A DNA stretch of 64,000 nucleotides, taken from Ideonella sp. GTDB taxonomy: Bacteria; Pseudomonadota; Gammaproteobacteria; Burkholderiales; Burkholderiaceae_C. Under the pieces are notes generated by a model, which had not been told where the DNA came from, did not search any database, and worked only from the letters and a program-made list of their open reading frames with translations. The stretch is taken from contig JABTUC010000003.1 of assembly GCA_015075545.1 (NCBI GenBank), positions 186,001 through 250,000 of the forward strand, written 5' to 3'. Shown in pieces: positions 1,089 to 57,388 of this stretch (position 1 is its first letter; each line of letters begins with the position of its first letter). Position numbers and translations under genes: made by a program.

Positions 1089-1232
1089 CGCATCCGATGC
1101 CGGGGCGCCGGCAGCGCGGCGCCTTGCGCGATCTGCCGCTGCGCGGCCACGCTGGCACACTTGCGGCAACGCCCCGCGCGCCCGCGCGCTCACCGTGCGC
1201 GCACCGATCAGCCCGAACCAAGGAACTCCTCG

Positions 1233-1655
1233 ATGGCTCTCACTCTGGACCAGGCCAACCGCATCATCGCCGCCGCACTGGCGCGCTCAGCGCAAGGCGG
1301 CTACAAACCGATGGCGGTGGTGGTGCTCGACGACGCCGGCCACGTCAAGTCGGTGCAGCGGCAAGACGGCGCCAGCATGCTGCGCGTCGACATCGCCACC
1401 GGCAAGGCGTGGGCCGCGGTGGGCATGGGTGCTGCGTCGCGCGTGCTGACGCAGCGCGCCAAGGATCTGCCGGCGTTCTTCAACGCCATCGCCGCCAGCG
1501 CGCAGGGCAAGTTCATCCCGCAGACCGGCGCGGTGCTGATCAAGGACGCTGCGGGCCTTGTGCTCGGTGCGGTTGGCGCCAGCGGCGGCACCGGCGACGA
1601 AGACGAGCTGATCTGCGCCGCGGGCGTCGAGTCGGTCGGGCTGGTCGTGGGGTAG
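1233..1655 (+). CDS. GlcG/HbpS (DUF336) family heme-binding-like protein
   Basis: 140-residue single-domain protein that begins MALTLDQANRIIAAAL. It has the family core PMAVVVLDDAGH, a central TGKAWAAVGMG block and the Gly-rich GAVGASGGTGDEDE C-terminal half typical of GlcG/HbpS proteins. Members bind heme or small ligands, and many sit beside oxidoreductases, so the ligand cannot be read from sequence. The start is ATG 1233, preceded by AAGGAAC at about -13 to -7; the longer frame upstream reads as low-complexity Arg/Pro and is not coding. It lies 38 bp before the aminotransferase on the same strand, so the two may be cotranscribed. Confidence 0.85.
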   Translation: MALTLDQANRIIAAALARSAQGGYKPMAVVVLDDAGHVKSVQRQDGASMLRVDIATGKAWAAVGMGAASRVLTQRAKDLPAFFNAIAASAQGKFIPQTGAVLIKDAAGLVLGAVGASGGTGDEDELICAAGVESVGLVVG

Positions 1656-1681
1656 CGACCTCGCAGCTCGCGGCAGCCGGG

Positions 1682-1687
1682 TACAGT
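1682..1687 (+). promoter_or_regulatory. -10 box placing transcription start at the aminotransferase ATG
   Basis: TACAGT lies exactly 6 nt before the ATG at 1694. A start 6-7 nt downstream of a -10 would fall on the initiation codon and give a leaderless mRNA. No Shine-Dalgarno sequence is present. The same geometry recurs at several other genes in this window. Confidence 0.4.
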
Positions 1688-1693
1688 GAGCGC

Positions 1694-3450: not shown

Positions 3451-3478
3451 CGCAAACCCGCGTCTGGCACGCGCAGGA

Positions 3479-3817
3479 TCACAGCGGCGAATCGATCGCC
3501 TTGGCGCGCCCCGCGCGGCCACCCGAGAACCAGCTCATCGACTCGTGGGCCGCCTTGCCGGACTCGACGGCCGCGATGTCACGTGCCTGCTGGGCGCGCT
3601 TGGCGGCCCACAGCGCGCGCTCGGTCGGATTGCGCAGCGCACTGTCGCCGCGCAACAGATCGACCAGTTCGGCAACCGACACGCCGCTTTGCTCGACCGC
3701 GGCTCCCAGGCGCGCCCAGTGCTCCACTTGCTGGGCAGCCGAGCGCGACAGGACTTCGCCCTGGCGCTGGGCCTGCTCGAACAGCTCGGCGGAGATACGG
3801 ATGGAGTTGCTGCTCAC
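3479..3817 (-). CDS. ParD-like antitoxin
   Basis: 112 residues from GTG 3817. The opening SSNSIRISAELFEQAQ, followed by LSRSAAQQVEHWARLG, matches the ParD-like antitoxin family (ribbon-helix-helix N-terminus, Pfam ParD_like) as I recall it. The remainder, with LRGDSALRNP and an Arg/Ala-rich tail, is probably the flexible toxin-binding part. A GTG at 3838 would add seven residues unlike the family, so 3817 is preferred. An extended -10 (TGGTAATCT, minus strand, 3837-3829) lies 11 nt before 3817. It is followed after 28 bp by the nucleotidyltransferase gene, the presumed toxin. Pairing with a nucleotidyltransferase rather than ParE is the unusual feature. Confidence 0.65.
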   Translation of the reverse strand: MSSNSIRISAELFEQAQRQGEVLSRSAAQQVEHWARLGAAVEQSGVSVAELVDLLRGDSALRNPTERALWAAKRAQQARDIAAVESGKAAHESMSWFSGGRAGRAKAIDSPL

Positions 3818-3966
3818 GATGGCGTGGCAGATTACCACACTGCACGGCGAACGCGCCTGCCTGGATCCGCGCCTTGCCTGTGGCAGCGCGGCACGAGGTA
3901 CCCTGAAGCGCGATCGAATCCGCAGGTCGCCACGGTCGGCTCAACCTCGCCGGGGACCGACCGGGC

Positions 3967-4395
3967 TCATCCGCCCCTGCGCGGCGCGAGTTGCCGCCGC
4001 CGACTCTCCAGAGCTCCGGCAGCGGCGGCCTTCAGCAGCCGCTGGAACGATGGGCACGCCGCGTGGCTCGGCGCGGGGCAGACCGCGGCGTGCCGCAAGC
4101 CTTCGATCATGGCCTTCAGCCGCTTGACCATCCGCTCGAGCTCGTCGGCCTTGGCGGTGAGCATGGCGCGGTCGATGTTCGGCTCGCCGCCGGGCGTGAA
4201 CATCGACCGGATCTCGTCGAGCGAGAACCCGGCCGCCTGCCCCAGCGCGATGAGCGCGAGCTGGTCGAGCACGGCCGGCGAGAACTTGCGCCGGGCGCCC
4301 GTTGACTCCAGCGAGCGGATGAGGCCCTTGCTTTCGTAGTAGCGCAGCGCCGAGGCTGCCACGCCCGACTTCTTGGCGACTTCGGAGATGTCCAT
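3967..4395 (-). CDS. MerR family transcriptional regulator
   Basis: 142 residues. The N-terminal winged helix begins MDISEVAKKSGVAASALRYYESKGLI, the MerR signature, and is followed by the dimerisation helix (AMLTAKADELERMVKRL). The C-terminal segment AVCPAPSHAACPSFQ contains two Cys that could sense redox or metal, as in SoxR-like relatives. It is divergent from the DUF2938 membrane protein gene, and a palindromic promoter with a 19-bp spacer lies between them. MerR proteins typically repress and then activate such promoters by DNA untwisting, so DUF2938 is the likely target. The inducer is not evident. Confidence 0.9.
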   Translation of the reverse strand: MDISEVAKKSGVAASALRYYESKGLIRSLESTGARRKFSPAVLDQLALIALGQAAGFSLDEIRSMFTPGGEPNIDRAMLTAKADELERMVKRLKAMIEGLRHAAVCPAPSHAACPSFQRLLKAAAAGALESRRRQLAPRRGG

Positions 4396-4405
4396 CGAAA
4401 ACCGC

Positions 4406-4436
4406 TTGACTTGAAGTTGACTTCAACTTCTATGAT
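4406..4436 (+). promoter_or_regulatory. MerR-type promoter with 19-bp spacer and palindrome
   Basis: A -35 TTGACT (4406-4411) and -10 TATGAT (4431-4436) are separated by 19 bp. That is too long for unaided sigma70 but is the hallmark of MerR-regulated promoters. The spacer holds the dyads TTGAAG/CTTCAA (4411-4416, 4421-4426) and GAAGTT/AACTTC (4413-4418, 4425-4430). The promoter points into the DUF2938 gene. Confidence 0.8.
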
Positions 4437-4479
4437 GCCTTTCAACAGCTCGGCAGTCAACGCGATCAAGGAGTCTTCG

Positions 4480-4974
4480 ATGCTCACTTTCCACCTCGTC
4501 GGAACCGTCGCCCTCATCGGAATCGGCGCCACCGCGGTGATGGACACCTGGCTCGCGCTCTTGTCGCGCCTGGGTGTGCCGACGACCGGGTTCACGATGG
4601 TCGGTCGATGGGTCGGCAACATGCCGCGTGGCCGGTTCACGTACGTCGCCATCGCCAAGGCGCCGCCGGTTCGCTTCGAAGTCGGCCTCGGCTGGCTGAC
4701 CCACTACGCGATCGGTGTCGTCTTTGCAGCGCTGCTGGTCGCCCTGCAGGGCGCGGCCTGGGTCGAGCAGCCCACCTTCATGCCCGCTGTGGCCTGCGGT
4801 GTCGCCACGGTGGCCGCGCCCTGGTTCGTGATGCAACCGGCGATGGGCTCGGGCTTCCTGGCCTCGAAGACGCCCTCGCCGCTGAAGAACAGCCTGCGCA
4901 ACCTGGCCAATCACGCGGTGTTCGGCGCCGGCCTGTACCTGGCGGCCGTCGCCCTGGCGGAGCTCACGGCGTGA
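4480..4974 (+). CDS. DUF2938 family membrane protein
   Basis: 164 residues with about four hydrophobic segments. The first (VALIGIGATAVMDTWLAL) carries the conserved GIGATAVMDTW, and RWVGNMPRGRF, LTHYAIGVVFA and the C-terminal ASKTPSPLKNSLRNLANHAVFG follow, as in DUF2938. The function of the family is unknown. ATG 4480 has a strong AAGGAG at 4468-4473. Its promoter is the MerR-type promoter at 4406-4436, so it is probably induced by the adjacent regulator. The stop codon overlaps a GTG that opens the short remnant frame downstream. Confidence 0.85.
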   Translation: MLTFHLVGTVALIGIGATAVMDTWLALLSRLGVPTTGFTMVGRWVGNMPRGRFTYVAIAKAPPVRFEVGLGWLTHYAIGVVFAALLVALQGAAWVEQPTFMPAVACGVATVAAPWFVMQPAMGSGFLASKTPSPLKNSLRNLANHAVFGAGLYLAAVALAELTA

Positions 4975-5153
4975 AGCGTTCGCCCTCCCTTGCCCCGACC
5001 TCGGACGCGATCTCCCGGCCCAGGTCGGGGCCGATGGCCCAGGCCGGGCACGCCGCGCCGGCCGACTCGTTCGTGCCGGGCGACGTCAAGACCGCACGTC
5101 TGTTCGGCCGACACTTCGCGCAGAGCCTGAGCCGCGTGATGGTTCTCGCTTGA
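4971..5153 (+). pseudogene. Possible remnant of a flavodoxin-fold NAD(P)H oxidoreductase (C-terminal end)
   Basis: A 60-codon frame starts at a GTG that overlaps the TGA of the DUF2938 gene. Its second half (GPMAQAG, then PGDVKTARLFGRHFAQSL) resembles, from memory, the C-terminal tail of flavodoxin-like quinone reductases, where an acidic/Pro segment is followed by a final TARLFG-type helix. The FMN-binding part is absent, so it is more likely a relic than a working gene. A translated peptide coupled to the upstream gene remains possible. Confidence 0.3.
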
Positions 5154-5176
5154 GCGAGACCGCAGGAGGATCGCTC

Positions 5177-5215
5177 ATGTTTCCCAAGAAGCTCGACGCC
5201 GAACCGTCGTCCTGA
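5177..5215 (+). other. 12-codon ORF with a strong ribosome binding site
   Basis: ATG TTT CCC AAG AAG begins a 12-residue frame (MFPKKLDAEPSS) preceded by AGGAGG at 5164-5169. It lies between the flavodoxin-like remnant and the DUF6622-like gene. It may be the decayed 5' end of a lost gene, a leader peptide or chance. There is no evidence of function beyond the good ribosome site. Confidence 0.25.
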
Positions 5216-5241
5216 AACCAAGAGAACTGGGGAATCCTTTG

Positions 5242-5730
5242 ATGGTTCAGATCCTTGCCCACACGCCGACCTGGGTGTTCGCACTGTTCTTCGTGCTACT
5301 GGTATTCGGCCTCATGCAGACGAGGACACGTAGCGTAGGAAGGTTTGCTGCGCTGCTGCTCCCCGCCGGCATGGTGGCCTTGTCGCTTGCGGGAATCGAT
5401 TCGAGCTTCGGCCTCACGCCCGTGCCTCTGGCTTCCTGGGCCATCGCACTGGCTGTCGCCATCGTCCTCGGCTACGCCGTGTTGCGCGACAAGCGAGTCG
5501 AGTACGACGCGAGCGCGCGCAAGTTCTTCGTTCCGGGCAGCTGGGTTCCGCTGGTCGTGATCATGGCCATCTTCTTCGCGAAGTACGTCTACGCGGTGAT
5601 GCACGCCTTCGATGCCAGCGTCATCACCACGCCGCTGTTCATCGTGGCCTTGTCCGCCGTCTACGGCCTTCTCAGCGGCTACTTCGCTGCCAGGGCGCTG
5701 AACTTGCTCAAGGTGGCAAGAGCCATATAA
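5242..5730 (+). CDS. Multi-pass membrane protein, DUF6622-like
   Basis: 162 residues, mostly hydrophobic, with about five transmembrane segments: residues ~5-25, ~33-52, ~60-82, ~100-120 and ~125-150. Features such as ILAHTPTWVFALFFVLLVFG at the N-terminus and VYGLLSGYFAARALNL near the end match the DUF6622 family as I recall it. No catalytic motif is visible. ATG 5242 follows GGGGA at 5229-5233; a TTG one codon earlier is less likely. It sits alone between the MerR/DUF2938 locus and an SDR gene. Confidence 0.75.
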   Translation: MVQILAHTPTWVFALFFVLLVFGLMQTRTRSVGRFAALLLPAGMVALSLAGIDSSFGLTPVPLASWAIALAVAIVLGYAVLRDKRVEYDASARKFFVPGSWVPLVVIMAIFFAKYVYAVMHAFDASVITTPLFIVALSAVYGLLSGYFAARALNLLKVARAI

Positions 5731-15726: not shown

Positions 15727-17499
15727 TCAGCGCGGGCACTCGTCGAACAGCTTGACAGTGCAGCGCGCGCAGATGCCGGCGTCGAGCTTCGGCACGATGG
15801 TGGCGATCGCGGTGCGCTTGTCGGGAAAGATGTGGTCGCGGCCGATCTCGTCGACGAAGCCGCTGCGCTGCCACAGCGCCAGCACCGGCGGCCGCGGGCG
15901 GTGGAAGTACAGGTCGCCACCGGCCGCGCGGCGCAGCCGCAGCTCGTCGCGCCACAGCTCGTCGCCCGCGACGTCGACGAAGTTCATGCTCTTGGCCATC
16001 ACCAGCAGGTGCTCCTGCGGTGCCGGGGCCGCGCGCAGCTCGTGCAGGCGCTCGGCCACGTGCTGCGTGGCACCGAAGTAGACCGAACCTTCCATGCGCA
16101 GCAGCTTGAGCTGCGGGCACTCGGGCAGCGCGCGCGGGTTGTCGTCGGCGATCACGAGGTGGCGGCCGCTCTCGCGGCTGTCGAAACCCATCGTTCGCAT
16201 CGCCGGCCGCGCGGTGCGCCACAGGAAGTCGGCCAGCGACAGCAGCGTGCCGAAGCCGATCGCCAGCGCCAGCGGCACCGCGAGCGTGGCCACCAGCGTC
16301 GCCAGCGCGATGCCGAACTCGCGCCGCGACAGCGCGTGCAGGCGCCGCCACCGTGGCACGTCGAGCAGCGACCACGCCACCACCAGCAGCAGCCCGGCCA
16401 CCGCGGCCATCGGAATCGCCGCCAGCAGCGCCGCGCTCACGCCCACCAGCGCCAGCAGCCACAGCGCCGAGAACACGCTGGCCAGCGGCGTGCGTGCACC
16501 GCCTTCCAGGTTAGGCAGCGAGCGGTTCAGCGAGCCGCACGAGACGAAGCACGAGAACAGCCCGCCGGCCAGATTCGACAGGCCCTGGCCGACGAACTCG
16601 CGGTTGACGTCGACGTACTGCCCCGAGCGCTGCGACAACACCTTGGCGATCGAGTACGACTGGCCGAGCGCGATCACGGTCAGCGCCAGCGCCGAGCCCG
16701 CCAGCGACGGCAGATGGCTCCAGTGGATCTCGGGCGGCTGCCAGCGCGGCCACGCCTGCGGCACCACGCCGACCAGCTCCACCGCGGGCCAGGCGCGCAC
16801 GCCCCACGCCAGCGCGGCCGCGGCCAGCATGCCGGCGACCATGCCCAGCAGCAGGTGCGGCGAGCGCGGCCAGGCGCGGCGCGCCGCCAGCGCCGCCGCG
16901 ATCGTCAGCAGCCCCACCACCAGCGCCGCCGGGTTGGCCTGCGGCAGGTGCTGCGCCAGCGCCGCCAGCGTGGCCGCGGTCGACCCGCCGGCCGGCACCG
17001 CCACGCCGAGCAGATCCTTCAGCGAATGCAGCGCGATCAGCAGCGCGGCGCCGCCGGTGAAGCCGCGCAGCGCCGCCGGCGAGATGAAGTGCGCCAGCGC
17101 GCCCAGCCGCAGCGCGCCGACGGCCAGCTGCAGTGCGCCCACCAGCAGCGTCACCAGCAGCACGAGCTGGATGTACGCCGGGCTGCCCATCGCCGCCAGC
17201 GGCGCCAGCATCGCCGCCAGCGCCAGCGAGTTGGCGTTGGTCGGCCCCGACATCACGTGGCGGCTCGAGCCGGCGAGCGCCGCCACGATGCACGGCAGCA
17301 CCGCGGTGGCCAGGCCGTACGACGGCGGCAGCCCGAGCAGCGCCGCGAACGCGATCGCCTGCGGCAGCACCAGCACCGCGCCGAGCAGCCCGGCCAGCGC
17401 GTCGGCACGCAGCGTGCCGCGATCGACCTCGCGCACCCAGGGGCCGAACAGCTTCGCGAGCGCGCTGGTCGCGCGGTGGATGGTGGTGGTGGTCGTCAT
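15727..17499 (-). CDS. SulP family anion transporter with STAS domain
   Basis: 590 residues. About 10-12 hydrophobic helices cover residues ~30-440. The SulP signature is visible as DALAGLLGAVLVLPQAIAFA, LPPSYGLATAVLPCIVAALAGSS and SGPTNANSLALAAM. A C-terminal STAS domain (LLRMEGSVYFGATQHVAERL, then SMNFVDVAGDEL) ends with a Cys-containing tail CARCTVKLFDECPR. It carries sulfate, bicarbonate or an organic dianion, driven by a cation gradient. It is convergent with the winged-helix regulator gene. The following lipoprotein gene (33 bp upstream on the same strand) may be cotranscribed. Confidence 0.9.
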   Translation of the reverse strand: MTTTTTIHRATSALAKLFGPWVREVDRGTLRADALAGLLGAVLVLPQAIAFAALLGLPPSYGLATAVLPCIVAALAGSSRHVMSGPTNANSLALAAMLAPLAAMGSPAYIQLVLLVTLLVGALQLAVGALRLGALAHFISPAALRGFTGGAALLIALHSLKDLLGVAVPAGGSTAATLAALAQHLPQANPAALVVGLLTIAAALAARRAWPRSPHLLLGMVAGMLAAAALAWGVRAWPAVELVGVVPQAWPRWQPPEIHWSHLPSLAGSALALTVIALGQSYSIAKVLSQRSGQYVDVNREFVGQGLSNLAGGLFSCFVSCGSLNRSLPNLEGGARTPLASVFSALWLLALVGVSAALLAAIPMAAVAGLLLVVAWSLLDVPRWRRLHALSRREFGIALATLVATLAVPLALAIGFGTLLSLADFLWRTARPAMRTMGFDSRESGRHLVIADDNPRALPECPQLKLLRMEGSVYFGATQHVAERLHELRAAPAPQEHLLVMAKSMNFVDVAGDELWRDELRLRRAAGGDLYFHRPRPPVLALWQRSGFVDEIGRDHIFPDKRTAIATIVPKLDAGICARCTVKLFDECPR

Positions 17500-43685: not shown

Positions 43686-44759
43686 CTACAGCTTGGGCCC
43701 GCCGCGCTGCTTGGCATTCTCGATCTGCTGCTGGGTCTGCTGGTTCAGGCCACGTACCGCGACCTCGTGACTGACCACAGCGGCATTGACGGCCAGCGCA
43801 TGGTCGTAGATGTCGACTTGCACTTCCTGGATCACGCCGTTGGCAACCGCATCCCAGACGCGATCGCCGGCCGTGCCGGGCAAGTTGGCGCGAGAGTAGT
43901 CGTGGTCGACGTCGCGAATCGAGCTCAGGTTGCTGCCGGGAACAGCGAAATTGATCCGCGCGGCGATGGTCACGACGTCGCGGCAGGCTGCATTGTTCTT
44001 GACGTCAGCGAACGTGCCAATGCCCATCGTGACTTGCGGTGCCACGTTGCGCGGCCTGTACCCCATGATCTCCTCACAGAGGCCCGGACCGTGGAGATAG
44101 TCGCGCACCTTTTCCGCTGACCACGGATGGCCTCGAGAATCGAGCACCCAATGCATCTTGTTGGTCGTGAGGTCGGTGTAGCTCTCGTGGCCGTACTTCT
44201 TGCGCAGCGCCGCGACCGTCGCGCCGACGGTGGGACCCTGATCGGGGAGAAAACGCAGGACCCGATCGATGTACGTCACCACGCTCGGGTTCGGATACAT
44301 GGCGAACCCCATTTCAACGCCCTCGCTGCCTCGGGACGTGTCCACGCTCGATCCCTGGGTACCGCTGACATACGTCTGATTCGGTACCTGGCGGACCTGG
44401 AACATATAAGGCTGCCGCTCGTTGTCGGAATTGACCGTCAGACCCGAGGCCTTCATTTGTGCCAGGGCCTTGTCGGCCGGCATGCCGAGGTAGAACGGGC
44501 CGGCGCTGATGGCCGGGGTCGCCGCGATCAGCGCCTTGACACCCTCGGGGGTGGCGCTGGCCGCTGGTGCCTGCGCCGACATCGCCGTGTTCACCGGTGC
44601 GGACGAGGTTGCGGCTTGCGTGGCTGCAGGCGGCTTGGGCAGATGCTGCAGCGCCTTGTTCAGCTTGTCGAGCACGCTCTCCGCGCCGGCCAGGCCAGGC
44701 ACGCTGAGTGCTGCACAGATCGTCAGCATCCGGATTGCGTCAATTCGCCCGCGGTCCAT
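43686..44759 (-). CDS. Exported protein of unknown function
   Basis: 357 residues. A signal peptide-like start (MDRGRIDAIRMLTICAALSVPGLAGAES) is followed by an Ala/Pro-rich region, then FYLGMPADKALAQMKASGLTVNS and a large globular part containing KYGHESYTDLTTNKMHWVLDSRGHPWS. Two Cys (GPGLCEEIMGY, NNAACRDVV) may form a disulfide. I do not recognise a family. ATG 44759 has AAGGAG 8-13 nt upstream. It heads a three-gene minus-strand set with the two following genes. Confidence 0.6.
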   Translation of the reverse strand: MDRGRIDAIRMLTICAALSVPGLAGAESVLDKLNKALQHLPKPPAATQAATSSAPVNTAMSAQAPAASATPEGVKALIAATPAISAGPFYLGMPADKALAQMKASGLTVNSDNERQPYMFQVRQVPNQTYVSGTQGSSVDTSRGSEGVEMGFAMYPNPSVVTYIDRVLRFLPDQGPTVGATVAALRKKYGHESYTDLTTNKMHWVLDSRGHPWSAEKVRDYLHGPGLCEEIMGYRPRNVAPQVTMGIGTFADVKNNAACRDVVTIAARINFAVPGSNLSSIRDVDHDYSRANLPGTAGDRVWDAVANGVIQEVQVDIYDHALAVNAAVVSHEVAVRGLNQQTQQQIENAKQRGGPKL

Positions 44760-44916
44760 CTCGAATCTCCTTTGTTGTTGCTTCACGGCCTGACGCCGCA
44801 CATTGATTGCGCCCGTGCGCGACGGACAGCGCACCTTACGCGCTTCCAGTATGCGCTGAGGTCTCAGGGTGATCTGCGATGCGGCCCGCTGCTGCGCCGC
44901 GGGCGGCGCGAGCCGC

Positions 44917-46071
44917 TCACTGCGTCGGCATGCTGCCCGCCACCCCTTGCACCAGCCAATCGAGCCTGGCGATCGCGTCGTCGTCGAGGGTGCCGTGCGC
45001 CAGCCGCGTGCGGCCCCGGTTGTCGACCAGCGGCGCGACAAAGACACTGGCGCGGCCGTCGACCAGTGAGCGCCGCGCGGCGTCGAGCGCGCGCACCTGC
45101 GCAGCCGGCAACGCGGGGTCGAGCGCCACCAGATCCACCATGCCCGAGCGCACGCCGCCCCACACCGACCCGCTCTTCCACCGCCCGGCGATCACGTCGC
45201 GCGCCACCTGCGTGTAGTAGGCACCCCACGACGGGACCACCGCCGCCAGTTGTGCGTGCGGCGCCAGCGCGCGCATGTCGCTCTGGTTGGCGATGAAGCG
45301 CACACCCTTCTCCTCGGCGGCCAGCGCCACCGCCGGCGACGCGGTGTGATTCGCCAGCACGTCGGCGCCCTGGTCGACCAGCACGCGCGCCGCTTCGCGC
45401 TCGCGCGCGGGGTCGAACCAGGTGTTGAGCCACAACACGCGCACCGTGGCCCGCGGGTTCACCGCTCGCATGCCGAGCGCGAAGGCGTCGATGCCCTGCA
45501 CCACCTCGGGCACCGCAAACCCCGCCACGTAGCCGGCAATGCCGCTCCTGCTCGCCATCGCCGCCAGCCGCCCGGCGAGCCAGCGCGCCTCGTAGGCGCG
45601 CACGTTGTAGGTGCCCAGGTTGGGCGCGGTCTTGTAGCCACCGGCGTGCTCGAACTTGACATCGGGGAACTCGGCGGCCACGCGCAGCGCGCCTTCGAGG
45701 TAGCCGAAGCTGGTGGCGAAGATGAGGCGGTTGCCCTGGCGCGCGAGGTCGCGCATCACACGCTCGGCGTCGGGGCCTTCGGCGACGTCTTCGACCACCG
45801 TGGTCTTCACCGCGGGCCCGAGCGCGCGCTCCATCTCCTGGCGGCCGAGGTCGTGCTGGTAGGTCCAGCCGGCCTGGCCGACCGGGGTCACGTAGACGAA
45901 GGCCACCTTCAGCGGCGTGGCCGCCGCTGAAGCGGGCAGCGGCGCATCCGCCGCGGCGGCGGGCAGCGCCGGCGCCAGGACGGCCAGCGCCAGCAGCGCG
46001 CGCCGCGCGGGCACGAAGGACGATGGGTTGGGCAGGCGCGACGGGCGCGCCTGCGTGAGGTTTTGCGTCAT
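44917..46071 (-). CDS. BMP-family ABC-type substrate-binding protein
   Basis: 384 residues. The N-terminus contains a long signal/leader (RRALLALAVLAPALPAAAADA), then the BMP fold: KVAFVYVTPVGQAGWTYQHDLGRQ, FATSFGYLEGALRVAAEFPDVKFEHAGGYKTAPNLGTY, and IAGYVAGFAVPEVVQGIDAFALGMRAVNP. These proteins bind nucleosides, lipids or related ligands for ABC transporters. No permease or ATPase gene is adjacent, so the transporter must be elsewhere. The chosen ATG 46071 follows GAGGAC; in-frame alternatives lie a few codons upstream. Confidence 0.82.
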   Translation of the reverse strand: MTQNLTQARPSRLPNPSSFVPARRALLALAVLAPALPAAAADAPLPASAAATPLKVAFVYVTPVGQAGWTYQHDLGRQEMERALGPAVKTTVVEDVAEGPDAERVMRDLARQGNRLIFATSFGYLEGALRVAAEFPDVKFEHAGGYKTAPNLGTYNVRAYEARWLAGRLAAMASRSGIAGYVAGFAVPEVVQGIDAFALGMRAVNPRATVRVLWLNTWFDPAREREAARVLVDQGADVLANHTASPAVALAAEEKGVRFIANQSDMRALAPHAQLAAVVPSWGAYYTQVARDVIAGRWKSGSVWGGVRSGMVDLVALDPALPAAQVRALDAARRSLVDGRASVFVAPLVDNRGRTRLAHGTLDDDAIARLDWLVQGVAGSMPTQ

Positions 46072-46230
46072 GGTTGTCCTCGACATGGCCACCCGGAGCG
46101 CGGCGGTGGCGACCGCTGCGCAAATTCTAGGTCCGGGTTCCGGGCACCGCGTGCCGCGGCGATCGCCCCCGGGGTCGCTGCCGCAACGGCTGTGGCATCA
46201 TGATGCCTTCCCTGTTGATGCCTTGCCGTC

Positions 46231-49086: not shown

Positions 49087-49114
49087 TTGCTTTCGATGCA
49101 CATGGCATTAACAT
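49087..49114 (+). promoter_or_regulatory. Putative promoter of the RHH gene
   Basis: A -35 candidate TTGCTT (49087-49092) and a -10 candidate TAACAT (49109-49114) are 16 bp apart. Transcription would begin only a few nt before the ATG at 49124. Confidence 0.3.
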
Positions 49115-49123
49115 GCGATCCGC

Positions 49124-49354
49124 ATGGAGCTGAAGACCGCGCGCCTGACCCTGCTGGTCGACCCGGCCAAGAAAGCCGCCTTCGAGCGGCTGTGCGCGCA
49201 GCAAGACCTCACGCCGTCGCAGGTGGTGCGCCAGTTGATCCGCGACTACCTCGCGGCGCACGGCGTCAGCTACGTGCCCAGCGGCACGCCCGCCGCCGCC
49301 AAGCCCGCCGCGCGGCCCGCCAAGGCGCGGCCGCGGCGCCGCGCGAAGGGCTGA
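49124..49354 (+). CDS. Small CopG/RHH-like DNA-binding protein
   Basis: 76 residues. MELKTARLTLLVDPAKKAAFERLCAQQDLTPSQVVRQLIRDYL is an RHH-type strand-helix-helix. The remainder is an Ala/Lys/Arg-rich basic tail (PAAKPAARPAKARPRRRAKG). It may be a small DNA- or RNA-binding regulator. It lies alone, followed by a palindromic repeat element and the hyf-like genes. Confidence 0.7.
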   Translation: MELKTARLTLLVDPAKKAAFERLCAQQDLTPSQVVRQLIRDYLAAHGVSYVPSGTPAAAKPAARPAKARPRRRAKG

Positions 49355-49524: not shown

Positions 49525-51545
49525 ATGCAGACCGACCCCACGCAGTGGTTGCTGCTCGACTGGGCCATGGTGCTGCTCGGCGCGTGGCTCGTCATCGGCG
49601 CGGCCGGCGCGCGCTGGCGCTGCGGCGGCTGGCGTTCGTGTCGCACGTGCTGTTCCCGCTCGGCGGCGCGGTGGGCGTGCTGCTGGCCGCGCTCGCGCTG
49701 GCGGCGCTGTTCGTGCCGCCGCAGGTGGCGGTGCTGGCGATCGGGCTGCCGACGCTGCCGTTTCACCTGCGGCTCGACGCGCTGTCGGCGTTCTTCCTGC
49801 TGGTGATCGGCGCCACCGCGGCCGGCGTGTCGGTCTTCGCCGCCGGCTACTTCCGCCACGGCGAGGCACGCCGCCCGGGCTGATGTGCCTGCAGTACCAC
49901 CTGTTCCTCGCCAGCATGGCCGGCGTGGTGCTGGCCGACGACGCCTACGCCTTCATGGTGATGTGGGAGACGATGGCGCTGTCGTCGTTCTTCCTCGTCA
50001 CCTCCAACCATCAGGTGGCCGAGATCCGGCGCGCCGGCTACCTCTACCTGCTGGTGGCACGTCGGCGCGATCGGCATCCTGCTGTGCTTCGGCGTACTGC
50101 AGGCGAACACCGGCGACTACAGCTTCGCCAACATGCGCGCGCAGGCCTGTCGCCGCTGTGGGCGTCGATCGCGTTCGCGCTCGCGCTGTTCGGCTTCGGC
50201 GCCAAGGCGGGATGCTGCCGCCGCTGCATCTGGCTGCCCGAGGCGCACCCGGCGCGCGCCGTCGCCGGTGTCGGCGCTGATGAGCGCGGTGATGCTCAAG
50301 ACCGCGATCTACGGCCTGCTGCGCGTGCTGTTCGACCTGCTGTCCGCGCAGCAGTGGTGGTGGTGGTGGCGCGATGCTCGCGCTCGGCCTCCTCACGGCG
50401 CTGTTCGGCGTGGTGTTCGCCGCGGTGCAGACCGACATGAAGCGGCTGCTCGCCTATTCGTCGATCGAGAACATCGGCCTGATCGCCACCGGCATCGGCC
50501 TGGCGCTGCTGTTCTCGGCCTACGCGATGAAGCCGCTGGCCGCGCTGGCACTCACCGCGAGCCTGATCCACGTCGCCAGCCACGCGCTGTTCAAGAGCCT
50601 GCTGTTCCTGGGCACCGGCTGCGTGCTGCACGCCACCGGCGAGCGCAGCCTCGGCCGCCTGGGCGGCCTGATGCGCGCGATGCCGTGGGTGGCGTGGGTC
50701 ACGCTGGCGGGCACGCTGGCCAGCGCCGGCCTGCCGCCGACCAGCGGCTTCGTTTCAGGTGGCTGCTGCTGCAGAGCTTTCTGTTCACGCCGGGGCTGCC
50801 GACTCGTTCCTGAACATGCTGATCCGGTGGTGGCCGCGCTGATCGCGCTGGTGACGGCGCTGGCCGGCTACACGATGGTCAAGTTCTTCGGCGTCATCTT
50901 CCTCGGCCAGCCGCGCGAGCCAGCGCGCGCTGCTGAAGGCGCACGACGCCAACGCCTGGCAGCGCGCCGGCATGGCCTGGCTGCTGGCGGGCGGCGTGCT
51001 GCTCGGCCTGCTGCCGATCCAGTTCATCCAGTGGGTCGACCCGGTGACGCGCACGCTGGTCGGCGCGGGGCTCGGGCCCACCGTCGCGCAACACGGCTGG
51101 CTGCTCGCCCCACCGCGATCGAGCGCGCGAGCTACGGGCCGGTGTTCTTCCTGCTCGGCGTGGCGGCGTGCTTCAGGCTCGCCTTCGTGTGCTGGTGCGC
51201 CAGCTCTACCACGGCCGCATCCGTCGCGCGCCGCCGTGGGATTGCGGCTTCCCGTGGCAGGGCGCGCGCATGCAGGACACGGCCGAGGGCCGCTGGCCAG
51301 CCGATCCGCCAGATCTTCGAGCCATTCTTCCGCATGCAGCGCGAACTGCCGGCGCCGTCGGACGCCGCGCGCGCTACCACGTGACGGTGGAGGATCACTT
51401 CTGGCACCTGTTGTACCGCCCGATCGCCGACGCGGCCGCGCGCGTGGCACGGCTGGTGGGCCTGCTGCAGCAGGGGCGCATCGCGGTCTACCTGCTGTTC
51501 AGCTTCGTCACGCTGATCGCGCTGCTGCTGGTGGTGCGCCAATGA
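49525..51545 (+). pseudogene. hyfB: HyfB-like proton-translocating subunit, heavily frameshifted
   Basis: Reading through at least twelve frame changes gives one continuous NuoL/HyfB-like protein: MQTDPTQWLLLDWAMVLLGAW, HLRLDALSAFFLLVIG, YLYLLVA then HVGAIGILLCFG, LWLPEAHPAAPSPVSALMS, MKRLLAYSSIENIGLIATG, HALFKSLLFLGTG, GYTMVKFFGVIFLGQP and a C-terminal DHFWHLLYRPIADAA with last TM VYLLFSFVTLIALLLVVRQ. Each break is an indel of 1-2 bases in a G+C run, and protein similarity resumes at once. The gene may be intact in reality (sequence error) or recently decayed. It heads the hyf-like cluster. Confidence 0.75.
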
Positions 51546-51563
51546 ACGGGCACGGGGTGAGCG

Positions 51564-52516
51564 ATGACCGGCTGGACCGGCGCGTTGTCGCAGTTGCTCG
51601 AGATCGCGCTCGCGCTGGCGCTGGCGCCGCTGCTCACCGGCTGGGTCAACCAGTGCCGCGCCTGGCTGCAGAACAAGTCGGCGCCGCCGCTGCTGCAGCC
51701 GTACTTCCTGCTGCACAAGCTGTTCAACAAGGAGTCGGTGGTGGCCGATCGGGCGTCGCCGCTGTTTCGCGGCACGCCGTACATCGTGTTCGGCTGCATG
51801 ACGCTCGCCTGCTCGATCATCCCGACGCTGTCGACCGACCTGCCGCTCACGCTGGCCGCCGACGCGATCGCGCTGGTGGGGCTGTTCGCGCTGGCACGCG
51901 TGTTCATCTCGCTGGCCGCGATGGACGTCGGCACCGCGTTCGGCACCATGGGCGCACGGCGCGAGATGCTGATCGGCTTCCTGGCCGAGCCGGCGCTGCT
52001 GATGGTGCTGTTCTGCGCCTCGCTGATCTCGACCTCGACCTCGCTGGCCACCATCGTCGAGACGCTGGCGCACCGCGAGCTGGCGATCTACCCGAGCCTG
52101 GCGCTGGCCGGGGTGGCGTTCACCATTGTCTCGCTGGCCGAGAACGCGCGCATCGGTGGACAACCCCGCCACGCACCTCGAGCTGACGATGATCCACGAG
52201 GCGCTGATCCTCGAGTACTCAGGGCGCCACCTCGCGCTGCTGGGAGTGGGCCGCCAGCCTCAAGCTGTTCGCCTATTCGTGCGCCGGGCTGGCGCTGTTC
52301 TTCCGTGGGGCGTGGCCGAGGCCGGCTCGCCGCTCGAGATGCTGCTCGCGCTGCCCACACTGGTGCTCAAGCTGGCCATCGGCGGCGCGGCGCTCGCCGC
52401 GCTCGAGACCTTCAGCGCCAAGATGCGGATCTTCCGCGTGCCCGAGTTCCTGGCCACCGCGTTCCTGCTGGCGGTGATCGGGCTGCTGGTGCGCATCCTG
52501 CTGGGGGCGTGCGGTG
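51564..52516 (+). pseudogene. hyfC: HyfC/NuoH-like membrane subunit, frameshifted
   Basis: About 310 residues if the frames are joined. The first 200 residues are intact: MTGWTGALSQLLEIALALALAPLLTGWVNQCRAWLQNKSAPPLLQPYF, LLHKLFNKESVVADRASPLFRGTPYI and the conserved GTAFGTMGARREMLIGFLAEPALL. Frame changes occur near 52160, 52250, 52305 and at the end. VDNPATHLELTMIHEALILEYSGRHLAL is the HyfC/HycD motif with the conserved Glu. This subunit anchors the soluble arm to the membrane. Its stop overlaps the hyfE GTG. Confidence 0.75.
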
Positions 52517-53170
52517 AATCCGCTCGTCGGCGAGTTCATCAACCTGCTCGGCGCGATGCTGCTGATGCTGGCGTTCGCGATGCTGTCGCAGCGCGCGCGC
52601 TGTCGCTGGTAAACCTATTCACGCTGCAGGGCGCGGTGCTGGTGGTGGCCACCGCGGTGGTGGGTTATGCGACGCGGCAGCCGCACCTGTTCGTGTCGGC
52701 CACGCTGACGCATGCTCAAGGTGGTGCTGATCCCGAAGCTGCTGCACCGGTGATCGACCGCCTCGAGGTGCGCTGGGACACCGAGCCGCTGATCAACATC
52801 CGACCACGATGCTGGTGGGCATCCTGCTGGTGATCTTCGCCTTCAACCTGGGGCTGCCGATCGCGCGCTTCTCGTCGACCATCTCGCGCGGCACGCTGGG
52901 CATCGCGCGCTGGCGTGCGTGCTGCTGTCGTTCATGATGATGATCACCCGCACGCGGGCGATTCCGCAGGTGGTGGGCTTCCCGTCGATGGAGAACGGCC
53001 TGTTCTTCGCCGCCACCTCGGCGACCTACGGCATGCCGATGGTGGTGGAACTCGGCATCGCGCTCGACGTGCTGATCGGCGTGCTGATCCTCGGCGTCTT
53101 CATGTTCCAGATCCGCGAGCAGTTCGACAGCCTCGACATCCGCCACCTCGAGCGGTTGAAGGAGGACTAG
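52513..53170 (+). pseudogene. hyfE: HyfE-like membrane subunit, frameshifted
   Basis: About 218 residues if joined. NPLVGEFINLLGAMLLMLAFAMLSQ, LSLVNLFTLQGAVLVVATAVVGYATRQPHLFVSA, LVGILLVIFAFNLGLPIARF, AIPQVVGFPSMENGLFFAATSATYGMPMVVELG and IREQFDSLDIRHLERLKED read as an HyfE/NuoK-like protein. At least five indels (near 52597, 52713, 52755, 52802 and 52915) break it. GTG 52513 opens the frame. It is followed by a 638-bp gap before hyfF. Confidence 0.7.
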
Positions 53171-53242
53171 GGTGGCACCGGTTGCTTTAGTTGTTCATGG
53201 ATGCGCGCGCACCGTGCGGTGCGGTGGGCGGTGGCTTCAGCG

Positions 53243-53478
53243 GCGCGGTGGGCGGTGCCCGGTGGAGGCTCTACTGTGGCGGTCGGCGCTGCGCGCCGAC
53301 TTCGCTGCGATGCTCGCGCCACGAGGGCGGCTGCGGTACCGCCGTTCGCGGCGCTGCACGCGCCGCGAACTTCACGGCGTCCTCGCCGGTCCGTCGCCTG
53401 CGGCGCCGGACTCCCCCTCATGCCGCTGCGCTTCTCGCCGCCCCACAAGTCGCCCCCACCGGGCACCGCCCACCGCGC
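53243..53478. repeat. Inverted-repeat element (23-bp perfect arms)
   Basis: GCGCGGTGGGCGGTGCCCGG plus TGG (53243-53265) is repeated in inverted orientation at 53456-53478, perfectly over 23 bp, enclosing 190 bp. A shorter related copy, GCGGTGGGCGGTG, lies at 53221-53233. This geometry matches a small non-autonomous element, but no target-site duplication is obvious. Confidence 0.6.
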
Positions 53479-53521
53479 AGCGATGCTCGTGGTGTTTGCC
53501 GACGCATGCCACGGTGGTGCT

Positions 53522-53767
53522 GGCAAAGCCGTGGTCGGGTGTGCGCCGGCAGCGACATTGCGCGGCGCCGAGCAGCGCAGAGCGCATGGCCGCGCGCGCG
53601 CAGCGCGCGCATCCACATCTGACTCGCGGCGATTGTTCGAGCGCAGCGAACGCAGTGAGCGAAGCGAGTTTCGCCGCGGGCCATGCGATCGAGCAGCACA
53701 GGGGAGTCGGCCCGCAGGGCCGACCGCCGTGCACGAGCGCCGGCGCATACCCGGCCGCGGCTTTGCC
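53522..53767. repeat. Second inverted-repeat element (28-bp imperfect arms)
   Basis: The left arm at 53522-53549 and the right arm at 53740-53767 are complementary with about three mismatches in 28 bp (key parts GGCAAAGCC and GGCTTTGCC at the ends). The enclosed 190 bp include the hairpin GTCGGCCC/GGGCCGAC and GAGCG/CGAAGCGAG repeats. Its size is close to the first element, suggesting related insertions. Confidence 0.55.
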
Positions 53768-53808
53768 TCGCTCGAATCCGCGCATGCGGCGATGGCTGTA
53801 ACGCCCCG

Positions 53809-55260
53809 ATGAACGCCCTCTTCTTCGTGCTCGGAATCCCGCTGGCCGGTGGTGCGGTGCTTGCGCTGGTGGGGCACCGCGATCGTGCGATGGAGATCAA
53901 CGTCGCGTTCAGCGCCGCCACGTTCCTCGCCGCCTGCGTGCTGACCGCCGAGGTGATCGCCGGCGGGCCGCTGTTCGCGTGGGAGCGCGAGTTCTTCATC
54001 GACCCGCTCAACGTGTTTCTGGTCGCGCTCACCTCGTTCGTCGGCATGACGACCGCCCTCTTCTCGCGGCCGTACATGCGCGTGGAGCGCGACCACGGCA
54101 AGATGACGCCGCCGCGGCTGCGGCTGTACCACAGCATGTACCAGTTGTTCGGCTTCACGATGCTGGTGGCGCTGACGACCAACAACCTGGGCATCCTGTG
54201 GGTGGCGATGGAGGCCGCCACGCTGACCACCGTGCTGCTGGTCAGCGTGTACCGCACGGCAGCCAGCCTGGAGGCGGCGTGGAAGTACTTCATCCTGTGC
54301 GGCGTGGGCATCGCGCAGGCGCTGTTCGGCACCGTGATGCTCTACATGGCCGCCGAGAAGGTGGTGGGCGCCGAGGGCGCGCTGCTGTGGACCAACCTCG
54401 ACGCGGTGAAGGATCTGCTCGACCCGCGCATCATCACGCTGGCGTTCGCCTTCCTGTTCATCGGCTACGGCACCAAGGTGGGGCTGGTGCCGGTGCACAA
54501 CTGGCTGCCCGACGCGCACGCCGAGGGCCCGACGCCGGTCTCGGCCGTGCTGTCGGGCCTGCTGCTGAACGTGGCGCTGTACGCCGTACTGCGCTGCAAG
54601 GTGCTGACCGACGGCGCGCTGGGCTCGCCGCTGGCCGGCCACATGATGATCGGCTTCGGCCTGCTCTCGGTGGTGGCGGCGGCGTTCCTGCTGATGCGCC
54701 AGCGCGACATCAAGCGCATGTTCGCCTACTCGTCGATCGAGCACATGGGCCTGATGACGTTCGCCTTCGGCCTCGGCGGCCCCGTGGCCACGTTTGCCGG
54801 GCTGCTGCACATGACGGTGCACTCGCTCACCAAGTCGGCGATCTTCTTCACCGTGGGCCATGCCGCGCAGAAGGCCGGCACGCAGGTGATGGACGAGATC
54901 CGCGGCCTGGTGAAGGTCAATCCGCCGGTGGGCTGGGGGCTGATGCTGGGGTCGCTGGCGATTCTCGGAATGCCGCCGTTCGGCGTGTTCGCCAGCGAGT
55001 TCCTGATCATCACCACCGCGATGCGCGAGCAGCCGTGGACCACGCCGTTCCTGCTGCTGGCGCTCGGCGTGGCGTTCGCATCGATGTTCGGCCGCGTGCA
55101 GCCGATGGTGTTCGGCGACACCACGCTCGAGCGGCTGGCGCATCCGCCGGCGCTGGCGCCGGTGTTCGTGCACCTGGCGCTGAGCCTGATGCTCGGCCTG
55201 TACGTGCCGCCGTACCTCGACGGCTGGTTCCGCCAGGCTGCGCGCATGGTGGGCGGCTGA
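53809..55260 (+). CDS. hyfF: HyfF-like proton-translocating subunit
   Basis: 483 residues, intact. About 13 TM helices of the NuoN/HyfF type: NALFFVLGIPLAGGAVLALVG, KYFILCGVGIAQALFGTVMLYMA, then FIGYGTKVGLVPVHNWLPDAHAEGPTPVSAVLSGLL with the conserved Lys and His of the proton path, and IKRMFAYSSIEHMGLMTFAFG. It pumps protons in the membrane arm. It lies at the start of the intact second half of the cluster, 4-10 bp before hyfG. Confidence 0.93.
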   Translation: MNALFFVLGIPLAGGAVLALVGHRDRAMEINVAFSAATFLAACVLTAEVIAGGPLFAWEREFFIDPLNVFLVALTSFVGMTTALFSRPYMRVERDHGKMTPPRLRLYHSMYQLFGFTMLVALTTNNLGILWVAMEAATLTTVLLVSVYRTAASLEAAWKYFILCGVGIAQALFGTVMLYMAAEKVVGAEGALLWTNLDAVKDLLDPRIITLAFAFLFIGYGTKVGLVPVHNWLPDAHAEGPTPVSAVLSGLLLNVALYAVLRCKVLTDGALGSPLAGHMMIGFGLLSVVAAAFLLMRQRDIKRMFAYSSIEHMGLMTFAFGLGGPVATFAGLLHMTVHSLTKSAIFFTVGHAAQKAGTQVMDEIRGLVKVNPPVGWGLMLGSLAILGMPPFGVFASEFLIITTAMREQPWTTPFLLLALGVAFASMFGRVQPMVFGDTTLERLAHPPALAPVFVHLALSLMLGLYVPPYLDGWFRQAARMVGG

Positions 55261-55270
55261 GGGCGTGACG

Positions 55271-56851
55271 ATGCCGATCTCCGGGGTCGAGCTTGCCGCG
55301 CAGCGGTTGAACGCGCCGCTGCCGATCTGGCACGCGCCGGTCGACGCCGCCACCTGGAGTGCCCTGGCACGCGCCGTGGCGCGCGACCAGGGGCGGCTGC
55401 TGGCGCTGTGGGCCACGGGCCGCACCGCGGTGCACGCGGCCTACGCGCTGGCCGGTGGCGCGCTCTGGGCCGAGTTGTCGCTCGACGCCGACGCGGCCTA
55501 CCCCGACCTCGGCGCCACTTTCCCGTGCGCGCAGCGCATGCAGCGCGCCGCGGCCGACCTGTGCGGCGTGCACGCGATCGGCGCGACCGACGAGCGGCCG
55601 TGGCTCGACCACGGCGCGTGGACCACGGCGCAGCCGCTTAGCGACGCGCGGCGCGACGCCACGGCGCGGCTGCCAGCCGACGCCGCGGCGCAGGCGCCGG
55701 ACGGCACCCCCGATGCGCCCGCGCACGCCGGCAACTATCCGTTCGTCCGCGTCGAAGGCGACGGCGTGCACGAGGTCGCGGTGGGGCCGGTGCACGCAGG
55801 CACGATCGAGCCGGGGCACTTCCGCTTCTCGGTGGTCGGCGAGAAGGTACTGCGCCTCGAAGAGCGACTGGGCTACACGCACAAGGGCATCGAGCGCCGC
55901 TTCACCGAGCTGCCGCCGCTGCAGGCGCACCGGCTGGCCGGCCGCGTGTCGGGCGATTCGACGGTGGCCTTCGGCTGGGCCTACTGCATGGCGCTGGAGT
56001 CGGCGCTCGGCGTCGAGCTGCCGGCGCGGGCGCGCTGGCTGCGCGCGCTGCTGCTCGAGCGCGAGCGCGTGGCCAACCACCTCGGCGACCTGGGCGCGCT
56101 CGGCAACGACGCGGCGCTCGGCTTCGGCCTGGCGCAGTTCTCGCGCCTGCGCGAAGACTGGCTGCGCGAATCGCTGGCCACCTTCGCGCACCGCCTGCTG
56201 ATGGACGCCGTGGTGCCGGGCGGCGTGGCCGCCGACATCGACGCCGCGCAGGTACAAAGCATGAGCGCGCATGGCGACGCGGTGGCCGCCGAGGCGCGCA
56301 CGCTGCGCGCGATCTACGACGAGCACGCCGGCGTGCAGGATCGCTTCATCGGCACCGGCCGCGCCAGCCCCGAGCTGGCGCGCGAGCTGGGGCTCACCGG
56401 GCTGGCGGGTCGCGCCAGCGGGCAGCCGCAGGATCTGCGCTGCGACCATGCCTGGGCGCCGTACGACACGCTGCAACCCAGGCGTGCGCTGTCGCAGCAG
56501 GGCGACGTGGCCGCGCGCGTGGCGGTGCGCTTCGACGAGCTGTTGGAGTCGCTGCGGCTGATGCGCGAGCTGCTGGCCGCATTGCCCGCCGGCGCGGTGC
56601 GTGCACCGGTCGAGATGCCGGCCGCGAAGGCGCACGGCAGCGCGCGCGGCGCCGGCTGGGTCGAGGGCTGGCGCGGCGAGGTGTTCGTCGCGCTCGAGCT
56701 GCGCGATGGCGCCATTCAGCGCTGCCATTGCCACGACCCGTCGTGGCAGAACTGGCCGGTGATCGAACACGCGGTGATCGGCAACATCGTGCCGGACTTC
56801 CCGCTCATCAACAAATCGTTCAACCTCGGCTACTCGGCGCAGGACCTGTAG
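55271..56851 (+). CDS. hyfG: HyfG-like large subunit lacking the NiFe ligands
   Basis: 526 residues, intact. The N-terminal ~150 residues match the NuoC-like 30-kDa domain; the rest is the NuoD/HyfG large subunit (YTHKGIERRFTELPPLQAHRLAGRVSGDSTVAFGWAYC, LLLERERVANHLGDLGALGNDAALGFG). In NiFe hydrogenases the corresponding motifs are CxxC near the N-terminus and DPCxxC near the C-terminus. Here they read RVSGDS (~225-230) and DPSWQNW (~490), so all four Cys are gone. The protein cannot hold a NiFe centre. ATG 55271 has GAGGG 8 nt upstream; a GTG at 55265 is a less likely start. It is part of an Ehr-type complex. Confidence 0.93.
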   Translation: MPISGVELAAQRLNAPLPIWHAPVDAATWSALARAVARDQGRLLALWATGRTAVHAAYALAGGALWAELSLDADAAYPDLGATFPCAQRMQRAAADLCGVHAIGATDERPWLDHGAWTTAQPLSDARRDATARLPADAAAQAPDGTPDAPAHAGNYPFVRVEGDGVHEVAVGPVHAGTIEPGHFRFSVVGEKVLRLEERLGYTHKGIERRFTELPPLQAHRLAGRVSGDSTVAFGWAYCMALESALGVELPARARWLRALLLERERVANHLGDLGALGNDAALGFGLAQFSRLREDWLRESLATFAHRLLMDAVVPGGVAADIDAAQVQSMSAHGDAVAAEARTLRAIYDEHAGVQDRFIGTGRASPELARELGLTGLAGRASGQPQDLRCDHAWAPYDTLQPRRALSQQGDVAARVAVRFDELLESLRLMRELLAALPAGAVRAPVEMPAAKAHGSARGAGWVEGWRGEVFVALELRDGAIQRCHCHDPSWQNWPVIEHAVIGNIVPDFPLINKSFNLGYSAQDL

Positions 56852-57388
56852 ATGCTCAAGCTGATGCGACAGATCGCGCGGGTGGGCATCGCCACCGAGC
56901 CCGTGCCGGCCGACGCCGGCGCGGCGAGCGCCGCCGCGGCGACGATCCACGACGAGATCCTGGCCATCCTCGGCAAGGCGCTGGCGATCCGGCAGGTGGA
57001 TGCCGGCTCGTGCAACGGCTGCGAACTCGAGATCCAGGCGCTCGGCAACCCGTACTACAACCTCGAAGGCCACGGCATCCGCTTCGTCGCCAGCCCGCGC
57101 CACGCCGACCTGCTGCTGGTCACCGGCCCGGTGTCGCGCAACATGGCGCAGGCGCTGCAGCGCACCTACGACGCCACGCCCGCGCCCAAGCTGGTGGTGG
57201 CGGTGGGCGACTGCGGCTGCGACGGCGGCATCTTCGGCGAGAGCTACGCGAGCTGCGGGCCGGTGTCGCGCGTGATCCCGGTCGACGTGTCGGTGCCAGG
57301 CTGCCCGCCGCAGCCGCTCGATATCCTGCGCGGCATCCTGCTGGCGGTGCGCCGGCTGCCCGCGCGCGCGGCGGCGCCCAGCGCATAG
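56852..57388 (+). CDS. hyfI: HyfI/NuoB-like iron-sulfur subunit
   Basis: 178 residues, intact, starting 1 bp after the hyfG stop. The cluster motif QVDAGSCNGCELE has Cys54 and Cys57, VAVGDCGCDGG Cys121 (or 123) and SVPGCPPQPLDIL Cys151, which is the ligand pattern of the proximal 4Fe-4S cluster. It carries electrons to the site formed with HyfG and is the last gene of the cluster. No ferredoxin-like (HyfA/HyfH) gene and no hyp maturation genes are nearby, in keeping with the loss of the NiFe site. Confidence 0.93.
   Translation: MLKLMRQIARVGIATEPVPADAGAASAAAATIHDEILAILGKALAIRQVDAGSCNGCELEIQALGNPYYNLEGHGIRFVASPRHADLLLVTGPVSRNMAQALQRTYDATPAPKLVVAVGDCGCDGGIFGESYASCGPVSRVIPVDVSVPGCPPQPLDILRGILLAVRRLPARAAAPSA

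Follow-up and report, generated by a model that had tools for sequence, protein, structure and literature searches.

The stretch of DNA analysed here (the window) comprises 64,000 nucleotides of an Ideonella sp. genome, being part of contig 7 of an assembly of 3.69 Mb in 13 contigs that is 85% complete, and carries at positions 49525-57388 homologues of hyfB, hyfC, hyfE, hyfF, hyfG and hyfI, in that order. We found that this cluster is predicted to encode an energy-converting hydrogenase-related (Ehr) complex, in which the NiFe site was lost while the membrane arm and the HyfI/HyfG pair were kept, and that polar residues at or near the lost metal site are conserved throughout its family. The best lead on its function is a role in inorganic-carbon supply, to which we assign a probability of about 0.35, giving equal weight to a general redox-driven ion pump.

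The gene order given in an earlier note on this DNA was borne out by homology searches, as was its claim that the complex cannot be a hydrogenase. When window HyfG was aligned with E. coli HyfG, the four cysteines that hold NiFe were found to correspond to S229, S232, G522 and A525, and the only cysteines of the window protein (88, 100, 241, 393, 487 and 489) form no CxxC elsewhere in it. The note had located the two lost cysteine pairs at RVSGDS and DPSWQNW; the loss was confirmed, but the second placing was not, as the site equivalent to DPCxxC lies at the C-terminus and reads NLGYSAQD, and DPSWQNW, a signature of the family itself, corresponds in the alignment to a hydrogenase stretch that precedes DPCxxC. 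E. coli HyfG bears a C-terminal tail that is removed during nickel insertion; it measures 35 aa past the last metal cysteine, versus 3 aa in the window protein. None of the 135 main-family HyfG proteins aligned (4 of 148 loci were dropped, being too short or containing a stop) has all four NiFe cysteines and 8 have one, position 229 being S in 117, A in 11, C in 6 and V in 1.

The accessory genes of a hydrogenase were likewise sought by tblastn in 148 loci (a set that includes nine loci of the distant clade C, described below, and leaves out nine plasmid loci), where HypA, HypB and a HycI-type protease were found in 0/148 and short HypF-like matches in three. In agreement with the absence of nearby hyp genes put forward earlier, HypA was not found in the window's genome (85% complete), and the sole match to a NiFe large subunit in it is this hyfG, below the cut-off. 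A genuine group 4 [NiFe] hydrogenase was thus ruled out, the cysteine, Hyp and C-terminal tail tests all failing. These data indicate that the window complex is not a hydrogenase, its HyfG being predicted to be unable to hold NiFe.

The closest solved relative of HyfG is nonetheless HycE of E. coli formate hydrogenlyase (FHL), both by sequence (7z0s_E, E=3.8e-49) and in a fold search with a HyfG model, in which the same chain came top (E=1.1e-27, TM score 0.77, root-mean-square deviation 6.5) and complex I subunits were also alike; the model, built from 44 of the 80 named loci, has a pLDDT of 80.9, with residues 112-207 poor. Four polar residues are near-invariant among the 135 HyfG proteins, namely D231 (135/135), D491 (133/135), K517 (134/135) and N520 (133/135), the exceptions being one E, one S and otherwise gaps, and the same positions are occupied by I, A, G and D in E. 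coli HyfG and in the true hydrogenase L038. All four lie at the lost metal site or close to it in sequence, and they may meet in space. Because they are near-invariant where the cysteines were or nearby, selection seems to act on this region of HyfG in favour of another chemistry or ligand, and the region is not eroding. It is doubtful that the former NiFe pocket is a new catalytic site in which these residues themselves bind or hydrate CO2/HCO3-; if it were, Ehr would join NDH-1MS and DAB as a third class of complex-I-type inorganic-carbon pump, evolved independently of them. In a comparison with 2fug_4, I181 and G230 of window HyfG stand at what we take to be the quinone-binding His and Tyr positions of the complex I 49 kDa subunit (NuoD), so these two residues are not kept.

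Cys 54, 57, 121 and 151 of HyfI, named in the earlier note as the four cluster cysteines, do align with the cluster ligands of E. coli HyfI (Cys 123 and 135 being extra), the Glu and Lys of the HyfF channel motifs are kept with respect to E. coli HyfF, and the HyfC of a relative (L026) keeps acidic residues in the corresponding loop; residues of this kind carry protons in complex I. Identity to the E. coli Hyf subunits ranges from 21 to 45% (window HyfF, HyfG and HyfI, and HyfB, HyfC and HyfE of L026), with window HyfF at 45% over 357 aa. From the kept residues we infer that a reaction at the HyfG/HyfI interface would most likely still be coupled to ion movement through HyfB, HyfC and HyfF. 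Group 4/complex I type large and small subunits are thus present together with antiporter-like membrane subunits and without CxxC, which supports the assignment to Ehr that had been proposed.

Such complexes are widespread and extend beyond Burkholderiales. All six genes are present in 115/139 main-family loci, most of the other 24 being cut by a contig end, and six-gene loci occur in Burkholderiales, Gallionellales, Thiobacillus and metagenome-assembled genomes (MAGs) labelled Acidobacteria, as well as on alphaproteobacterial plasmids, where the hyf order is that of the window; the idea of a minimal Burkholderiales form was therefore abandoned. A scan of named genomes yielded at least 577 relatives, of which 80 were kept; most of these belong to Burkholderiales, Gallionellales and Thiobacillus, and a few to MAGs labelled Acidobacteria, Terriglobia and Myxococcaceae, labels which may err. 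At E<=1e-60, HyfG matched 45/369 genomes of the class (the window genome and the distant G187 included), 73/398 genomes of a phylum sample (among them ten with weaker scores of 1e-78 to 1e-87, possibly true hydrogenases) and 61 plasmid records. In a HyfG tree of 73 rows, made by a quick method and without published Ehr sequences, 70 rows lacking the cysteines stood together (support 97), apart from two true hydrogenases, E. coli HyfG and L038; within them, the distant clade C (8 rows, 96) was separated from a main family (62 rows, 100) that holds clade B (17 rows, 99) and clade A (44 rows, 99), the latter including the window. Unlike the main family, clade C loci L196, L197 and L198 have an adjacent gene for a ferredoxin-like HyfH; HyfH-like matches were found in 7/148 loci and were directly adjacent only in these three, four main-family matches lying elsewhere in the locus.

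Departures from the six-gene form not caused by a contig end include L174, with hyfG alone, and L181 and L189, in which no hyfI was found. In L172 (G216, 173-5484) hyfG-hyfF is followed at once by a SulP gene, in the place expected for hyfE, hyfC and hyfB, and in G022 the halves of hyfG lie apart on one 3.6 Mb contig, the first (L029) with hyfB-C-E-F and the second (L030) with hyfI, reflecting either rearrangement or misassembly. Two loci carry additional sets: L047 (4792-19528) holds tandem Ehr operons, one of clade A followed by one with clade-B-like HyfF and HyfI that is cut by the contig end, and in L248, on a Variovorax plasmid, a second complex-I-like set (antiporter-like, NuoC-like and 4Fe-4S proteins, 1-3485) lies ~3.4 kb upstream of the Ehr operon.

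The substrate had been described as open; it is less so than stated, as several lineages have neighbours of these operons that suggest a link to inorganic carbon. Neighbours were counted by tblastn within 10 kb of hyfG, since open reading frame picks are often in the wrong frame in these high-GC sequences, and the 148 loci of this count take in the plasmid loci and leave out the nine of clade C. Genes for SulP, carbonic anhydrase (CA), RuBisCO or DabA were found in 19/148 loci, with SulP in 16, gamma-CA-like proteins in 7 (the match in L033 being partial), cbbL in 4, a CsoSCA-like CA in 3 and DabA in 1. The SulP genes vary in both type and placement: in the window's congeners L025, L026 and L028 they follow hyfI by ~20-40 bp on the same strand, in Thiobacillus and L033 they lie upstream of hyfB, and in Gallionella L109 and Sulfuriferula L091 downstream. 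In Thiobacillus L088, a gamma-CA with three histidines, whose roles we assume, starts ~31 bp after hyfI, with SulP genes on both sides. In Accumulibacter L048 (13565-21340) a DAB-type operon, consisting of an antiporter-like gene, DabA and further antiporter-like genes, begins 1.5 kb after hyfI, with two opposite-strand genes between hyfI and the DabA operon. Within 10 kb, SulP was seen in 5/57 genomes versus 0.62 expected (Poisson P 0.0005 for five, places compared by hand).

The CsoSCA-like CA is a stand-alone protein of 353 residues that matches PF20686 in L033 and L085; the copy of L164 has no Pfam match and is 73% identical to that of L033. A motif scan found C-x-D-x-R, His and Cys kept, which we take to be the zinc positions (the six-frame scan, a regular-expression search for beta-CA motifs, gave mostly wrong-frame matches and was used for this protein only). 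Its gene has an Ehr neighbour in two clades, A (L033, L085) and B (L164), three cases seen where ~0.014 would be expected in 148 loci by a rough estimate from five strong genomes: the protein is rare, being found at 1e-8 in 7/369 class genomes, five matches being strong (37-73% identity) and two weak, the latter tentatively taken for carboxysomal CsoSCA. Among the five strong genomes, one has the gene beside Ehr (G121) and one beside a DabA/antiporter cluster (G388, L211). When the carbon-neighbour labels (which do not count the DabA of L048) were placed on the tree, the 18 labelled among 69 rows required 8 changes, compared to 12-18 in 50 shuffles, the rows being hand-chosen and holding every labelled locus; on the full tree (18/144 rows) 10 changes were required. 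The trait is clustered on the tree but is not one event.

Several observations weigh against an inorganic-carbon role. No such gene lies within 10 kb in 129/148 loci, though many flanks are short, and other genes recur as well, spermidine-synthase-like genes near 22/148 loci and YoaK near 13/148. Three of the five SulP genomes belong to one genus (Poisson P 0.025 counting three), and three of the five strong CsoSCA-like genes (L212, L213 and L214) are without hyf or antiporter neighbours. The model that gives the highest score to the SulP from the window's genus is that of DauA, whose cut-off is not reached, and the BicA cut-off was reached by 0/4 SulP proteins examined. Over the 369 class genomes (overlaps read by hand, G000 and G187 counted among the others), neither RuBisCO (22/43 Ehr-positive genomes versus 153/326 others, p=0.63) nor DabA (11/43 versus 71/326, p=0.56) was enriched with Ehr. 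That the cluster cysteines are kept suggests a redox function, for which plain CO2 hydration would have no need, and no SulP or CA gene lies close to the window's own hyf cluster, the only SulP/STAS transporter gene found in its genome being 38 kb from hyfG (15727-17499, minus strand). Divided by HyfG motif, RuBisCO was present in 2/12 clade A genomes versus 20/31 other Ehr-positive ones (p=0.06; among the 31 are two whose motif is intermediate and one that lacks the C-terminal part), a difference that is suggestive only.

If the inorganic-carbon role is correct, the job of the complex in at least several lineages would be an energised supply of inorganic carbon, carried out together with a separate CA or SulP-type bicarbonate transporter and resembling that of the NDH-1MS and DAB complexes. 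Because the main family has no adjacent ferredoxin-like subunit, a soluble low-potential carrier may donate electrons to the HyfI cluster directly. RuBisCO was not found in the window's genome (85% complete), and for this organism we would propose, speculatively, bicarbonate supply for ordinary carboxylations. Held in equal regard is a redox-driven ion pump of general use and with no carbon link, passing electrons from a soluble low-potential donor such as ferredoxin through the HyfI cluster to a quinone or other carrier near HyfG/HyfC. Such a pump would account for the kept HyfI ligands and the acidic and lysine residues of HyfF and HyfC, is consistent with the fold likeness of HyfG to complex I subunits and with the presence of Ehr in heterotrophs, Burkholderia and Rhizobium among them, and fits both the missing co-occurrence with RuBisCO or DabA and the lack of a carbon neighbour at most loci; yet it leaves the CA, SulP and DabA neighbours unexplained, the presumed quinone His and Tyr are not kept, and a ferredoxin-like HyfH is directly adjacent in clade C only.

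Three further explanations were judged far less probable than these two. An FDH-Ehr complex (FDH, formate dehydrogenase) that oxidises formate has been proposed for Margulisbacteria, Geobacter and Acidithiobacillus in the available parts of PMC6349859, PMC7894505 and PMC2621215, but is improbable here, as formate-dehydrogenase-like genes were found by tblastn in 2/148 loci, both matches weak (23-24% identity), and the six-gene operon is without HyfA/HyfH-type linker subunits. Slimmer still are the chances of a sulfur-species reductase or oxidase like archaeal MBS, with the SulP proteins as sulfate carriers: 6u8y_L, presumably MBS, is among the PDB matches of HyfG (E=1.7e-17) and several SulP-linked loci come from sulfur-oxidising bacteria, Thiobacillus and Sulfuriferula among them, but the family is widespread beyond sulfur bacteria, and the nearby carbonic anhydrases and DabA have no known sulfur role. 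Finally, the operon might be decaying and inactive in this genome, which we consider unlikely. When congener proteins were cut into 20-residue pieces and matched against the reading frames of the window, 19 frame changes were counted within ~3.6 kb (49525-53170; 11 in hyfB, 3 in hyfC and 5 in hyfE), and window HyfG has a Gly, seen in no other relative, where 111/135 have Ser, all as decay would predict; yet there were none in the next 3.6 kb, and the broken genes keep near-normal identity, with 31/33 pieces of congener HyfB matching at >=50% identity (mean 80%), 15/15 of HyfC (mean 86%) and 10/10 of HyfE (mean 77%), not far from the 83-89% seen for hyfF, hyfG and hyfI, which are intact. Because of this near-normal identity and the unbroken hyfF, hyfG and hyfI, the breaks are probably sequencing errors in a poorly sequenced stretch and not old decay; hyfB, hyfC and hyfE are intact in the congeners L023 and L026.

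All six genes lie on the plus strand. The frame-broken hyfB (49525..51545), for an antiporter-like subunit, has a piece that matches hydrogenase 4 subunit B (E=2.5e-87); hyfC (51564..52509), NuoH-like, matches PF00146 (E=8.7e-22) and, by tblastn, appears as pieces in two frames, its frame changes lying in the last third; and hyfE (52517..53170) was traced by tblastn with a congener HyfE (53%, with gaps). The intact genes are hyfF (53809..55260; NF005045, hydrogenase 4 subunit F, E=2.3e-270), for another antiporter-like subunit and most likely starting at 53809, hyfG (55265..56851), for the catalytic-subunit homologue and with a GTG start, and the NuoB-like hyfI (56852..57388; PF01058, E=5.5e-32). 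Directly 5' of hyfB, on the plus strand, lies a gene for an RHH_9 ribbon-helix-helix (RHH) protein (49112..49354; PF19839, E=2.5e-21), homologues of which occur within 10 kb of hyfG in 37/148 loci and which, as a recurring neighbour, is a possible regulator; XRE-type genes occur in 15/148. The flanks consist of the RHH gene and metG upstream and scpA downstream. In a search for a single conserved partner gene outside the six, whose locus set leaves out L024, L037 and L038, none was found; metG (20/98 loci) and scpA (14/98) recur near Ehr, which we read as ordinary chromosomal order.

A short spermidine-synthase-like protein is encoded on either side of Ehr in L248 (5816-6550), L026 (16951-17754) and 20 further loci. 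Elsewhere in the window, positions 43686-46092, with overlapping long open reading frames, may be similarly poor long-read assembly. A short contig of another genome (L024, G005:C16, 4836 bases) encodes a HyfG 100% identical to that of the window, besides that genome's own 82% copy (L023), and is probably a cross-assignment between assemblies.

To summarize what this adds, the window complex is one more member of a known Ehr kind, and the notable part is the conserved replacement site of HyfG together with the carbon-handling neighbourhood, both new here, which make the question of function experimentally approachable. If the inorganic-carbon role is true, bacteria without carboxysomes would have an added route to concentrate inorganic carbon. 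Where annotation was opened (9 of 61 plasmid records, 3 of the 9 being unannotated), the Ehr genes were called hydrogenase-4 or formate hydrogenlyase, and H2 metabolism should not be predicted from such annotations. In the open-access literature searched, as far as its text was available, PMC3826726 is the only paper found to connect such a complex with carbonic anhydrase, and no paper was found that connects one with SulP, DabA or CsoSCA-like genes; the available part of a review of inorganic-carbon toolkits mentions neither hyf nor hydrogenase (PMC10880623).

By sequence and fold, the closest solved structure is that of HycE of E. coli FHL; from FHL and E. coli Hyf the window complex differs in having no NiFe cysteines, no processing tail and no HyfA, HyfD, HyfH or HyfJ; no hyfA, hyfD, hyfH or hyfJ was found beside the cluster, versus hyfABCDEFGHIJR in E. 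coli. The six-gene form is not new, as Acidithiobacillus ferrooxidans hyfBCEFGI, likened here by gene order and description only, consists of the same six genes in the same order; the available text reports it as classed non-hydrogenase by HydDB, and its subunits were not identified in H2-grown cells (PMC7735108). In Acidithiobacillus caldus one hyf cluster stands beside a beta-CA and another with carbon fixation genes, according to the accessible part of PMC3826726, whose authors use the name HyfBCEFG and interpret the complex as a hydrogenase that evolves H2; our likening of it to the window's Ehr goes by neighbours and description only and differs from their reading. The NiFe residues are also gone in the Ehr complexes of comammox Nitrospira, ammonia-oxidising archaea, Geobacter and Margulisbacteria, compared by description only: those of Nitrospira and the archaea are described in the available excerpts as without CxxC and of unknown function (PMC10284858, PMC10432482), that of Margulisbacteria as possibly FDH-linked (PMC6349859), and that of Geobacter, whose subunits are named differently (EhrA-1, EhrC, EhrL and EhrS), as more abundant on formate (PMC7894505). 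DAB2 and NDH-1MS are presented in the text available as vectorial CO2 hydration machines (PMC13144422). Unlike DAB and NDH-1MS, Ehr has no CA-like protein among its six subunits and keeps the NuoB/NuoD-like ones; it resembles both in its antiporter-like proton modules, and it shares with DAB a CsoSCA-like CA as neighbour, one Ehr operon (L048) adjoining a DAB operon.

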